Assembly (NCBI GenBank): GCA_025349905.2
Contig: MU624540.1
Location: forward strand, 1 to 64,000
Direction of reading: 5' to 3'
DNA from: Blastocladiella britannica
Taxonomy: Eukaryota > Blastocladiomycota > Blastocladiomycetes > Blastocladiales > Blastocladiaceae
DNA: 64,000 nucleotides
Shown here: piece after piece, positions 13,491 to 26,702 of the stretch
Numbering within the stretch: position 1 is the stretch's first letter
Layout: every line of letters begins with the position of its first letter
Translations under genes and position numbers: made by a program
Notes under the pieces: model-generated
Told to the model about the DNA's origin: nothing
Seen by the model: only the letters and a program-made list of their open reading frames with translations
Database searches by the model: none

Positions 13491-13710
13491 TGAGGAGTTG
13501 GACGCGGTCCCATCTGTTTCGTGGAGTAGAGTGGTGTCTGTCTTTCATTGGTCTCACTGGCTCCTCAAGGATCGGTCCAAGCGCGATCAACCCACCGACT
13601 GTATGATCCCTCTCGCTCTTTCTTTCCGTCTTGACCTCAAGCGCGCACGCAATTATACTTTCTTCAATTTAATCACCGTCGTTTTGGTGGTCAAAAGTAA
13701 GTTCCAGACC

Positions 13711-14081
13711 GAGTGCAGATCAAGGCCAAGGTCAAGCAGGAATCCAGGATCAAGGACATATGAGAGCGGTTGATGATGACGAGACGAGTGGAACTACGTG
13801 AATGAAAGAATTCTTTTGGAGAAAATATTGGATCCGAGCGCTGGAGCTGGAAAGCTTGGATATCGGAATGACATTGGCAACCCAAGCTGGATATCACATT
13901 ACTGGATCAAAATAAAAAATTGGTCATGGACGGACCGTCCGGAATATCAACGAGAAAGCCGGACTGGTTTGACATTGAAAAGAAAATAGGCATTGGAATT
14001 CGGATGGAAGGATTTGGGACACGGCAAAGTAAATCGTGTTCCGATTTCCATCTCCAAAACCGTGTTCAGTGCGCAGCCGTG
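13711..14081 (+). repeat. Dispersed ~370-bp repeat, copy A
   Basis: This copy is shared with copy B (25763-26127) in the same orientation. Identity is almost complete across the central ~105 bases: the 20-base start ATGGACGGACCGTCCGGAAT at 13926-13945 matches 25950-25969, and the match continues to about 14030/26054. Similarity is patchy over the left half (13711-13920). Copy A lacks the 22 bases that copy B carries between two CCAT tetranucleotides near the right end. No terminal inverted repeats, target-site duplication or TG...CA ends are evident. The right end is 14 bases from the stop of the minus-strand gene at 14096. Confidence 0.85.
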
Positions 14082-14095
14082 GAGGTCCACGGAGG

Positions 14096-21831: not shown

Positions 21832-24334
21832 TTATGGCAAGTCCTTGGTGTCCGGATACAAGTGCTTGAACCGGTTCTTTCGCTGGATGGGCACGATCGC
21901 ATCGGACGAGAACCGGATCCCACAGGCATTACTATTATTTTTTGTTCGCAAGTCAGTTCGTGCTGCATCAGAATACAATACAACGCAATACCATAACGTG
22001 CGCGGCCCCATAGGTCCTTTCCGAATCGACATGGTCCGCGTTGAGTCCAAGAAACAGTTGGTGCAGTGCCAGCGCTCGACATCGCCCTGTCCCCACGTTT
22101 TGATCGACTTGTTTTCCGTGATGGGCGGCAACTTGTCAGCCAAGATCGGCTCGAGCCCGCCGCGCGTCGACTGACCGGTGCGGAGCAGCAGCCCACGCTT
22201 GTTATGCAGCGGCGGGCCTGATGCGGGTGCGGCCGCGGACCCGGCGGGAGGGGCAAGGGGCGGTGGCGCGCTCATAGACAAAGTTGCGGCCATGGCGTTG
22301 TGAGCGGCATTGGCGGTGGTCGGCCCTCCGCCGGCCGCGGCAGCAGCAGGACCACCACTGCCCGGCACCAGCACCGCCGAGGCCGGCACCCCACCGGCCG
22401 TCGGCGGCGCCAGCGCGTACACGGCCGCGGCTGTGAGTGGTGTGGCGGCGCGGGCTGCCAGCGCAAACTGGCGGGTGAGGGCGCGCTCGTACGCGGCGAT
22501 CTTGGTCCCCTGGTCCTCGGCGTCGCGGACGCGCGCGTCACGTACCGCCGCGTCCGATTTGGCGAACCGGCGGGCCCGGCGCGCGTCTCGATCGTTGGCT
22601 TCGCCCGACGCGCCCACGGCCGCAGCAGCCGCCATGGCGGACGCGGTGGCCAAGTCCAGGTCCTCAGCATACGCCGCGTACGCGTCGGCCGATGCGCCCA
22701 CGCACACGGCGGTTCCAAATGCCACGGGGTCGCGTGCGGTGAGTGGGACCGAAAGGGTTGATGAGGCGGGCGGCGCGGGTTTGCCGAGCACGGGGACCGA
22801 GGGTGCGTCGCGCGGGCCAGGGACACTCAGCAAGTGCTCGCGCACGTACGCTACCAGCTGGCCGCGGACGGACGCCGCATAAATCGGCGCGAGTTCGCGC
22901 GGTAGGCCCAGGTCGGCGACGGTCTGCATCGCTAGCTGTTCGGGAGTCAGGGTGGTCCGTGGGTCCCAGTCGAACCGGTCGCGCAAGTGGATGCGGCCCA
23001 CCACCAGATCGATCTGTTTGGAATTGAATGGTGAGTACAATCGAAAAAAAAAAAAGGGAAAGGGAGCGCGCACCTCGATCGGAATCAGCACCGAGTCCTC
23101 CTCGTCCGCGGCCTCCACCGCAGCTGCCGCAACTACGGACTCAGCTGCCTCAGCCTCACCCTCCAACCAAGTAATGGCCGCATCCCCGCCACCACTGGCA
23201 TCCCCGGCCCACTCGTCGACCTGCAACCGGATCGCCGCCGCAATCACCGGCACCAGTCGCGGCGGCAGCAGCAAGTCCGTGCACAGTATTTCGGCAAACT
23301 TTTCAGCCGTGACCATCGGGTCGCGTGCGTTCCACAGAAACGCGTCCCGGAGCCGCGCCGTCCCGGCCGCCATCGAGTGCCCGCCCGACGAGCCCGCGTA
23401 CATGGGAATGTCCAAGTCCAGGACCACAGGCACCAGTGCCTCGCCGTAGGCTGCAGCGGCGCGGCGTTGCGCCGGTGAGAATGCCAGGTGGTACAGGTGG
23501 TTGGTGCGGGTGATCACGCGCTTGTCGGACCGCGGGACCCGCACATCGAACTGCGACGTCACGTCGAATGGACGGGACGGGTCCTGGTACGTCGGTGGGA
23601 CTGGGAGCGATGGGGGAGGCGGTTGTTGCTGCTGTGCAGGGGTGGCCGTTGTGGGGAGACTGCTGGACGAGCCGCGGTCGCGATCGGACCGGGACATGGC
23701 GTGGGCAGCTGCACGGGCGGCGGTCCGGCGCGAGCGTAGAGGGACCGCGTCCGAGTCGCTCTCCGATGCGTCTATGATAGTAATGTTCGTCAATCCAAGC
23801 TGGTGCCCAATCCAATACTTGGAAAAAAAGTTAGAGTAAGGTACAGTCGTCGTCGGGCCCGTCGCGATCACCGCCAGCACCATCAGCACCCGTGGCAGTG
23901 GTAGTGGGCGCATCGAGTGCACGTGGACCTACCATCACCAGGCCGTTGGGCAGACACCGCGCGCGGTTGTGCAAGTCCGACTCGATGCCGGCCACTGGGC
24001 GGCGAGGGGGCATGGCCATCGGGTGCTGCATCTGCTGTTGTCTCTGCTGCTGCAGCTGGAGAGCCGCTGCTGCCCGTTGTTGTTGTTGTTGCTGTTGCAT
24101 TTGAATCTGCTGCTGCAGTTGCTGCTGATTGGGGTACGGCGAGGGAGCGGTGGTCGCAGGCTGCATTCCGTAGAACGAGGCGACCGGGACCGGCGCGGGG
24201 GGTACCGTCGTCGAAGACGAGGGCGAGGACGAAGACAAGGAGGAGGAGCGCATCAAGCTCAGGCCGCCAATGGAGAGCGTCGGAAGCGACGAGGAGGGCG
24301 GCGGTGGAGGCGGGGGCGGGGCAGGAGCGCCCAT
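21832..24334 (-). CDS. SNF5: SNF5/SFH1 SWI/SNF-RSC subunit with C-terminal GATA-type finger
   Basis: Exon 1 (from 24334) encodes a polyproline and glutamine-rich N-terminus. An intron of about 30 bp near 23.82-23.85 kb leads to the core. Two SNF5 repeats are clear: LVPVVLDLDIP...LRDAFLWNARDP...EILCTDLLLPPRLVP, and HLRDRFDWDPRT...ADLGLPRELAPIYAASVRGQL. A third intron interrupts a GATA-type finger that reads CTNC, 20 residues, then CNAC after splicing. SNF5/SMARCB1 proteins are core subunits of SWI/SNF or RSC remodellers and contact the nucleosome acidic patch. The fusion to a GATA finger is known in some fungal SNF5/SFH1 proteins. An internal intron sits in a poly-Phe-like T run near 23.05 kb. 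The stop at 21832 follows LYPDTKDLP. Confidence 0.9.
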
Positions 24335-24547
24335 GTGTGTATGTGTGAGATCCTTTTTCTGTATACGGCTGCTTGGGCTTGCTATACGGTCGCTGCCTTG
24401 AGTGTGTCGTGTTGAATTTACCGTACAAGGCAAGTCTGCGCACATCTGATTCAACCAAACCAAAAATCCACCGGAAAAGCTGAAACTCGTGATCTCGACC
24501 CTGCACTTAAACAAGCACGCCAAAAGAAAAGGCCTAATCGAGAAAGG

Positions 24548-24672
24548 GTGGGTGTGATCCCAGATAAAAGAGGGGAGGAGGGGAAGGGCAACAGAAAAAA
24601 GTGGAAGAAAAGTACGAGGACAGCAAAAGAAGAAAAAAACGAGAGCAAAAACAAGAGGACAGGAAAAAAAAA
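24548..24672 (+). other. Polypurine tract downstream of the Fanzor ORF
   Basis: About 125 bases of the plus strand are almost all A and G, for example GAGGGGAGGAGGGGAAGGG followed by A-rich blocks. The tract sits immediately 3' of the Fanzor reading frame, whose minus-strand stop is at 24675. The minus-strand transcript would therefore carry a long polypyrimidine run there. In TnpB and Fanzor loci the guide RNA is usually encoded in this position, but I see no obvious hairpin here. The rest of the ~340-bp gap to the SNF5 start shows no gene. Confidence 0.6.
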
Positions 24673-24674
24673 CC

Positions 24675-25680
24675 CTACGGCGTCACCACGGCCGCCTCGG
24701 TCGGGGCCACCAGAGCCGCGATGGCATTGGCCCTGATCTTGGCCTCGACCGCTGTCGCCTTCGCACCAAGACGGCGCAACAACTCCAACGGCACGTTCAC
24801 CAACTGGGCCGCCTCACGCATTTGGTGGACCTGCTTCAGCGCATGCGCCGGCCCGCATCTCTCGCCAACTGCCACCGCCTCCTCCATCATGCGGGTCCAC
24901 CAGTCCGGCAGCAACCAACAACACGCCATGTCCGCCTCGGTCGCAGCTTTACCACCGGCAAGCAGCCCACCGTCCCGCTCGAACTCGCCGATCATCACCG
25001 ACCACTGCTGATCGTGGTGCTTGCGGAACACGGCGAGCTTGGCGAGGAGGTCGTTGCACTTGGCAATGACAGGGCCCATCCGGAAGCACCTCGTCGCCAA
25101 AGTGAGCCGCTTCCGTTGCCAACGGAGAGCCTTGACGAGACCAGCCCGCGTGCGCGTCTTGGGGCAGCACGGCATGGCCTTCCAGTCGATGCGGGGCCGC
25201 CGAATGGCGCACCACTCCATCTTGCCAGAGACCGGGGCGGGCGGCTTCTTGGTGCGCGAGAACGGGTCCGGCCGCGCGCCGCCAAAGCATTCCATGTACA
25301 GGAAGAGACCGATCATGTTGCGAGCGGCATTCGCATCACGATCAATCACAAACTTGCACACCCGGCAGGCGCGCGTCCCCCACAGCTTGCCCGGCACGGT
25401 AACATCCACAACAGAGCTTGGACGTCCGACACTCGTCCATCCGGACGACCGTGTACCCGCGGCGGAGGCACGTGGGCTCGAACCAGCCCACCGCCGCCGG
25501 CGCAAATCCGCGAAGCGTCGCGAACCGACCCGAGTCGCCCGTCACGACGATCACGCCGGCGCGCTCGCATGGCGTGCGGCACTCCGGCGCAAGACTCCTC
25601 ACAAATTCTTCCTGGAACTGCTTCCTCTGGACCTCGTTGCGACGCTTGATGCGCGCTTGGATAGGTATTTTTTTTTTGGC
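24675..25680 (-). pseudogene. Fanzor-type (eukaryotic TnpB-like) RNA-guided nuclease, C-terminal fragment
   Basis: Reading leftwards from about 25.67 kb, IKRRNEVQRKQFQEEFVRSL leads into VIVVTGDSGRFATLRGFAP. MDECRTSKLCCGC follows (first CxxC of the zinc finger). Then, one base out of frame, come RACRVC (second CxxC) and IDRDANAARN, the RuvC-III motif with the last catalytic Asp. This order (GD-x-F-like strand, DE-x-RTSK-x-C, CxxC, DRDxNAARN) is that of Fanzor proteins. The N-terminal wedge/REC domains and RuvC-I are absent; non-coding sequence and repeat copy B lie where they should be. The frame continues about 210 residues past DRDANAARN, longer than usual. The frame break is an extra G in a five-G run (25377-25381, minus-strand sense). 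As assembled it cannot make a functional nuclease. Known family members cut DNA with a guide RNA and are carried by transposons. Confidence 0.85.
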
Positions 25681-25762
25681 GGGCGATCGCGTGTTGTATA
25701 TGGTATTCTTTCCCCTTCGCTTCACATTGTATTTTTTGATAGGTCGAGAATAAGCAATAAGT

Positions 25763-26127
25763 GAGCGCGGATCAAGGCCAAGATCAATCTGGAATCCAGG
25801 ATCAAAGTACCAAACGGGCCGGATCGGGAGCGGTCGGCGGGATCGGGATGAGTGGAAATTGCTGGAATGTAAGAAATCTATTGGAAATATTGGATCCCTG
25901 GAAAGCTGGGTTGGCGGAATGACATTGGTAACGCGGCCATTGGGTATCATGGACGGACCGTCCGGAATATCAACGAGAAAGCCGGACTGGTTTGACATTG
26001 AAAAGAAAATAGGCATTGGAATTCGGATGGAAGGATTTGGGACACGGCAATGTAAATCGTGCTCCGATTTCCATGGCAGGCCAGCTCGGAATTCCATCTC
26101 CAAAACCGTGTTCAGTGCGTAGCCGTG
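25763..26127 (+). repeat. Dispersed ~370-bp repeat, copy B
   Basis: This is the most complete copy. It matches copy A (13711-14081) from GATCAAGGCCAAG at the left to AGCCGTG at the right, and copy C at its right end. Its minus-strand reading is open and overlaps the upstream extension of the Fanzor frame, but the translation is not Fanzor-like and the same DNA occurs without Fanzor at copy A. It therefore looks like separate or flanking element sequence. The right end is 67 bases before the ATG of the SRA1-like gene. Confidence 0.85.
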
Positions 26128-26194
26128 CGCTTCAATAAAAATGATCACTTTTTAAAGAGAGAATTCCTGCTCTCGTACTGCAGCGTATTACACT

Positions 26195-26702
26195 ATGAGC
26201 GACCAACAACAACAACCACCACAGCACCATGAGCCCGGGTGGAACGACCCCTCGGCCGAAATCTTTATTGGTCACGCCACAACGTCAACCGACGCGGTGG
26301 TAGCCGTTGCCCAGGACCAGCTGCACGCCAAACTGACGGCCATTCTGGACGCCAAACGAACCACCATGGCTGTACTTATATACCCCTTTTGTAATGGAAC
26401 TCATCAATTCACATTGGATCAACAGGATCGCATGTTCAAGGACTCGGAGCAGCGGCTGGCTCCGCTGTTGGAACGACTGCACGCTCACCAGGTAGCTTCT
26501 CCACTCGCTAGTCTTTTAGACCAGGTGGTGGAATGTGCGTCATATATACGTGGTTCATATCTTCTTGGAGACTGATCTTGTAATTATAACAGCCTACAAT
26601 AGCCAGAACCAGGACGAGACAGGTAGGCTGCTGCAAACGCTGTCCACGCTGTACATGGACGAGGCCAAGTGGACCGTTGGGCTGCGGCGGCTGTTGTCGT
26701 GA
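26195..26702 (+). CDS. SRA1: SRA1-like protein (steroid receptor RNA activator / Sec31 C-terminal fold)
   Basis: Four exons (26195-26371, 26426-26491, 26525-26534, 26593-26702) sum to 363 bases, giving 120 residues. The N-terminus has the PGWNDP motif seen in SRA1 proteins. The C-terminal helical bundle has LLERLHAHQ and ends in MDEAKWTVGLRRLL, close to the family ending (WxVGxKRL). The third exon is only 10 bases. The family fold also occurs at the C-terminus of COPII Sec31, and stand-alone SRA1 proteins have roles in RNA and transcription co-regulation. The specific role in fungi is unclear. The start follows a CAATAAAA-containing leader just right of repeat copy B. The protein is short, so the family call is moderate. 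Confidence 0.7.

Follow-up and report, generated by a model that had tools for sequence, protein, structure and literature searches.

A probable dead, non-autonomous member of a Fanzor1-type transposon family in the fungus Blastocladiella britannica

The described Fanzor elements that come closest to the locus studied here are those of Spizellomyces punctatus and those of Allomyces, the latter a genus of the Blastocladiomycota. In the available part of their paper, Bao and Jurka list three Fanzor1 families in Allomyces macrogynus (Table 1, PMC3627910), so the Blastocladiomycota were already a known Fanzor1 host phylum. These families are likened to the one in Blastocladiella, from the same phylum, by that table entry and not by sequence (PMC3627910, in part). 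For S. punctatus, the accessible portion of PMC10432273 counts 134 ghosts next to 42 loci whose Fz genes are complete or partial. A search of the open-access literature for Fanzor together with Blastocladi- found nothing.

We analyzed a 64,000-nucleotide stretch of contig MU624540.1 of Blastocladiella britannica (the window), a species that NCBI taxonomy places in the Blastocladiomycota, Fungi, in line with a preliminary sequence-only reading that had called the genome fungal. Comparison with other copies in the genome leads us to assign a probability of roughly 0.88 to the view that the copy in the window is dead and non-autonomous and belongs to a family of DNA transposons bearing Fanzor1. 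The Fanzor transposon remnant is real, but of an already known type, in a large family whose copies are mostly deleted. As far as the available portions of PMC3627910 and PMC10432273 describe SPu-1/SpuFz1, that system and the Blastocladiella family share a Fanzor1-type core with DEYxTS, an element length near 2 kb (1,926 bp for the copy on contig C37) with repeats at the termini and many gene-less copies that keep the ends and the 3' region, which in Spizellomyces are the ghosts. By the same sources they differ in the terminal repeats, about 8-11 bp in Blastocladiella versus 30-33 in the Spizellomyces elements, and in the 2-bp flanks, which in Blastocladiella are not limited to TA, unlike those of SPu-1. 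SpuFz1 stops at RPxxFxR, whereas the Blastocladiella protein continues past it with a C-terminal extension, and against the SPu-1/SpuFz1 elements, to the extent that these partial sources cover them, the Blastocladiella copies that were translated are mostly broken and the guide RNA is only putative. The novelty is confined to the species as a new host, the structure of the element ends in it and the derivatives formed there by deletion. What is gained is a second Blastocladiomycota genus among the Fanzor1 hosts found in print, and a single genome that combines coding, deleted and ghost copies, shows 2-bp flank matches and bears traces of exchange from copy to copy; with this material one can ask if guides of dead copies act in trans.

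The whole transposon copy is 1,687 bp long and lies on the minus strand (24441..26127), with its limits set by comparing the 5' and 3' ends of the copies. The 5' terminal repeat (26120..26127, minus strand) is CACGGCTA, where many copies have CACGGCTGCGC, and the 3' terminal repeat (24441..24448, minus strand) is CAGATGTG, where relatives have CAGACGTG, CAGGCGTG or GCAGCCGTG. Taken as a pair, the ends are short imperfect inverted repeats, CACGGCTA / CACATCTG, with the 2-bp target duplication CG on both sides (26128..26129 on the 5' side and 24439..24440 on the 3' side, neither assigned a strand). Inside these limits a 5' module comes first, followed by a Fanzor piece that lacks N-lobe and RuvC-I, then by the C-terminal extension and finally by a 3' module, which is conserved. 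The 5' module 'A' (25635..26127, minus strand) was recognized from genome repeats of the module with and without Fanzor sequence; it and both element ends fall outside 24675-25680, the range first given. A first-frame Fanzor fragment (25399..25665, minus strand) starts from between RuvC-I and RuvC-II and holds TGDSGR, the displaced Glu (MDE) and the first CxxC. The second frame (24678..25398, minus strand, stop at 24675-24677) encodes RuvC-III and the C-terminal extension, and the 3' module past the stop (24441..24677, minus strand) is a candidate guide-RNA region. A public gene model, BC828DRAFT_645 (P0002), treats the 5' module as protein; all 224 residues of the model come from the window first frame, in two exact pieces of 46 and 178, and judged by this match it is a transposon artefact. 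The part of the C-terminal extension beyond RPxxFxR (24678-25250, minus strand) is about 50% identical between the window and C37 types, and a Pfam search with it and with its C37 counterpart gave no match. The 5' module occurs once more in the window (13533-14085, minus strand), where neither Fanzor coding sequence nor a 3' end was matched alongside; this second copy is probably a broken ghost element.

The sequence-only reading had noted two motifs in the order and spacing of the zinc finger and RuvC-III site of TnpB/Fanzor. Both are there, in that order, on the minus strand: MDEC-RTSK-L-CCGC (MDECRTSKLCCGC, 25402..25440) carries the displaced RuvC-II Glu and the first zinc pair, and CRVC-KFV-IDRDANAARN (CRVCKFVIDRDANAARN, 25317..25367) the second zinc pair and RuvC-III, and together they are the two halves of a TnpB/Fanzor zinc ribbon. 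They do not, as had been supposed, form one continuous run. The first lies in ORF 25345-26151 and the second in ORF 24678-25541: alignment with the copies on contigs C499, C3 and C37 shows that the window copy has lost 14 nt between the two motifs, which shifts the frame; the deletion site (25398..25399, minus strand) is common to the copy on contig C81. Since the zinc ribbon is split, the window has no match to PF07282 (Cas12f1-like TNB) above the family cut-off, only two pieces below it, at profile positions 11-34 (E 0.11) and 42-60 (E 0.0015). In the whole genome the same search finds 7 undivided matches above the cut-off (best E 7.6e-11), and the window second frame is 86-91% identical to C499, C3 and C81; on both counts the window pieces are more than a chance match. 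The second frame has 54 protein matches in the genome, and at the DNA level 24300-26200 has at least 47 (the best 40 of 117 candidates were scored). The claim that the 5' part is missing stands as well: the first frame aligns to C37 only from residue 165, and so the window copy has no N-lobe and no RuvC-I.

If a once-complete Fanzor gene had simply decayed in place, which would agree with the missing RuvC-I and the broken frame, both the truncation and the frameshift would be unique to the window locus. Instead, 5' module and Fanzor fragment are joined at the same point in the window copy, C499 and C99, although the 5' flanks differ (for C99 the 5' flank was the only one compared), and the window copy shares the 14-nt deletion and one neighbouring base with C81. 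Thus the truncation is repeated at two other loci with other flanks, and the frameshift at one, which makes decay in place unlikely. C81 has a different junction, C499 lacks the 14-nt deletion and C3 and C37 have neither, so that all four combinations of junction and deletion occur among the copies, indicating exchange of sequence between them. Because the truncated and frameshifted forms were each copied to other loci, we read the window copy as a non-autonomous element and not just as a product of decay in place; the deletion derivatives moved as such. The word 'remnant', used for the locus initially, calls for refinement to that extent. C499 and C99 also carry an extra insert (174 and 173 bp, respectively) in the Fanzor fragment, between 5-bp CAACG repeats and with ends TGTGACG / CGTCATA, apparently another small nested transposon.

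In the mechanism that we favor, full-length members of the family would have coded for an RNA-guided RuvC nuclease, whose putative guide would consist of the element 3' end plus flanking DNA. Deleted members, the window copy included, would be unable to make the nuclease and would have been moved in trans by a putative transposase. They would have kept their terminal modules, as 'ghost' elements, and exchange of sequence would have taken place between them and sister copies.

The copies without RuvC-I could alternatively have been retained as a selected, nuclease-dead protein, in which RuvC-II and the zinc ribbon serve an RNA/DNA-binding regulator similar to the TldR proteins, which are derived from TnpB. 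We estimated dN/dS for pairs of copies by the Nei-Gojobori method, using open frames as they stand and excluding pairs with fewer than 50 codons or a low alignment score. Between the window first frame and seven other copies dN/dS is low, 0.16-0.27, as such a regulator would predict, and the element sits just upstream of an SNF5-like gene. However, the window and C81 copies are frameshifted, C499 has a stop and an insert in the same fragment, low dN/dS can predate the deletions, and four pairs compared beyond RuvC-III give 0.54-1.09; we consider a selected regulator quite improbable. The recent pair C37/C215 gives 0.69 and 0.97, and the remaining core pairs reach up to 0.7. Overall, the values fit past constraint on the nuclease core with relaxation in recent copies, an inference limited by recombination, since pairwise dN/dS mixes histories when copies recombine.

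Membership of the family in Fanzor1 is supported by motifs and by structure-database matches. In C37 an open frame of 469 codons contains, in this order, DPG, a Glu six residues ahead of CxxC, CxxC and RD; a frame of 316 codons in C2 repeats the arrangement. Both read MDEYRTSKLC where the window reads MDECRTSKLC, with Glu six residues before the first CxxC, and the suggestion that the Glu of MDECRTSK occupies the displaced RuvC-II position is borne out in all three copies; the RuvC-I DPG is present in C37 and C2 but absent from the window copy, which begins downstream. The Fanzor pattern in the available part of PMC10711439 is DPG-x(120-160)-E with Glu six residues before CxxC. The DPG-to-Glu spacings of 164 in C37 and 165 in C2 are just above this range (PMC10711439, same part), so that this detail does not hold, and the pattern used here allowed 120-175. 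The longer motif of Bao and Jurka, as we rendered it from the accessible text, matches C37 and C2 (PMC3627910), and the distance from the Gly of TGDSG to the Glu of DEY in C37 is 35 residues, beside 36 between the conserved G500 and E536 of SPu-1-1p (PMC3627910, available portion). The C37 ORF matches PF07282 with E 7.5e-10 and the guided_TnpB model NF040570 with E 2.6e-7 (30.3 bits, below that model's cut-off of 100, NCBIfam models being meant for bacterial and archaeal annotation). In PDB searches with the stretch that starts at RuvC-I, runs up to the displaced Glu and omits the zinc ribbon, SpuFz1 (8gkh) is first of 4 matches for a profile of five copies (E 0.00085, resting on about 76-77 residues or profile positions) and first of 2 for C366 alone (E 0.0012), with no TnpB or Cas12 chain listed. 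These matches, with those to PF07282 in the genome, agree with the initial assignment to the Fanzor family. With the whole profile of 8 copies SpuFz1 comes third, its Glu aligned (L79 0.0021, 8hr5 0.02, SpuFz1 0.022), and a further stretch at RuvC-III and RPxxFxR is far below significance. L79 (PDB 9b0l), a TnpB-like protein and a mimivirus Fanzor2, is the first PDB match of the C37 ORF alone (E 0.0047) and of profile A1, with EYxTxK-CxxC and DRDENAAKN aligned; just 53-56 residues align, and outside the zinc ribbon it is unlisted. A bacterial-type TnpB or other zinc-ribbon protein in place of Fanzor is most improbable: the zinc core alone (~60 residues) does match 8hr5 ('Transposase', E 9.3e-5) and L79 (E 0.00037) best with SpuFz1 unlisted, but DPG with Glu six residues before CxxC is the Fanzor pattern in the part of PMC10711439 available, SpuFz1 is best outside the zinc ribbon and the host is eukaryotic.

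The prediction that the family survives elsewhere in intact form is not borne out by the copies translated. Relatives with RuvC-I do occur elsewhere in the genome: in C37 and C2 a single open frame includes each of the three catalytic positions. However, among 7 copies translated upstream of RuvC-I none has N-lobe through RuvC-III in one uninterrupted frame, a result that is not final because it considers uninterrupted frames only, the sequence of C215 is interrupted by a run of N and the assembly may cut short those copies that sit at contig ends. Protein database searches for relatives gave 1, 4 and 2 matches, all from B. britannica (7,996, 7,996 and 160 candidates scored), the best being the hypothetical protein BC828DRAFT_401688. 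A scan of viral contigs for the family pattern yielded 22 stretches with 0 confirmed, and structure prediction for P0001 aligned with P0002-P0004 gave a poor model (mean pLDDT 43.5).

Across the family the 5' end is CACGGCTGCGC, or CACGGCTGGGG in the C37 type, and the 3' ends are ...CAGAYGTG, ...CAGGCGTG or ...GCAGCCGTG; the bounding ends can be written CACGGCTGC...GCAGCCGTG. With ends located by ungapped matching to a reference word, identical 2-bp flanks are found in 8 of 15 ghosts, against 2.9 expected by re-pairing (p 0.002; two ghosts with an exact 3-bp match are counted as 2-bp non-matches), and in 4 of 8 Fanzor-bearing elements against 2.1 expected (p 0.11). The matching Fanzor-bearing elements are the window copy, C37, C38 and C3; in C81, C215, C112 and C499, which do not match, one end is 4-8 mismatches from the reference word and may be eroded. 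The flanks of C197 also match, and pooling everything with C197 gives 13/24 (p 2e-5), a figure favoured by mixing types with different flanks, the 2-bp match being short in any case. For C37 we rejected a 7-bp duplication (CAATACA), as comparison of ends indicates 2 bp. Comparing the copies by eye, we saw no common 5'-flank motif.

Gene-less copies are part of the same picture. The window 3' stretch 24436-24560 occurs at at least 40 places in the genome (best 40 of 44 candidates scored) and the C525-type 3' end likewise at at least 40 (best 40 of 42), versus seven places with an undivided zinc ribbon; several window-type places sit at contig ends, which limits any count of those without the gene. 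Both termini and the 3' region are kept and the gene lost at 15 of 30 fetched C525-type loci, with the 5' end 190-1530 bp upstream, and at C197 for the window type; the other 15 of the 30 have no 5' end in reach. The window copy itself is not a ghost, as part of the gene is retained. Taken singly, C525-type 3' ends fold more stably than their shuffled versions (mean z -2.3; 17 of 30 below -2), and 14 3' ends of the window and C37 types give a weak consensus fold of -7.1 kcal/mol (no control). In the C525-type alignment, reduced from 30 to 27 rows by removing identical ones, 46 of 100 column shuffles reach the observed score and no pair changes on both sides, which gives a conserved guide-RNA fold at the 3' ends no support from covariation. 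We think it doubtful, but worth stating, that ghost and nuclease-dead elements might form a working network, in which 3' modules would be transcribed as guides for a few nuclease-competent copies, the guide of a dead copy would be specific to its own insertion site and so help the whole family persist, and proteins without RuvC-I might bind guides without cutting.

Some copies show a different kind of loss, keeping RuvC-I and the C-terminal extension without RuvC-II and the zinc ribbon (C3:19127-19834, C278:5177-5871, C337 and C112); C3 and C278 have one common internal deletion, and C337 and C112 have others. Five contigs (C22, C43, C211, C413 and C485) stop inside the element, near the equivalent of window 25038-25090, and may be collapsed assembly repeats; the copies are only 85-97% alike. 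In the window, some 107 bp separate the 3' end of the element from an ATG near 24334 (minus strand), which is downstream of it. Provided that ORFs 23834-24682 and 21835-23928 belong to a single gene as exons, this ATG is likely the start of the SNF5-like gene, whose PF04855 match (E 5.3e-28) falls in ORF 21835-23928. On the other side of the element there is a small unnamed ORF on the plus strand, from near 26198, followed by a Rab GDI gene.
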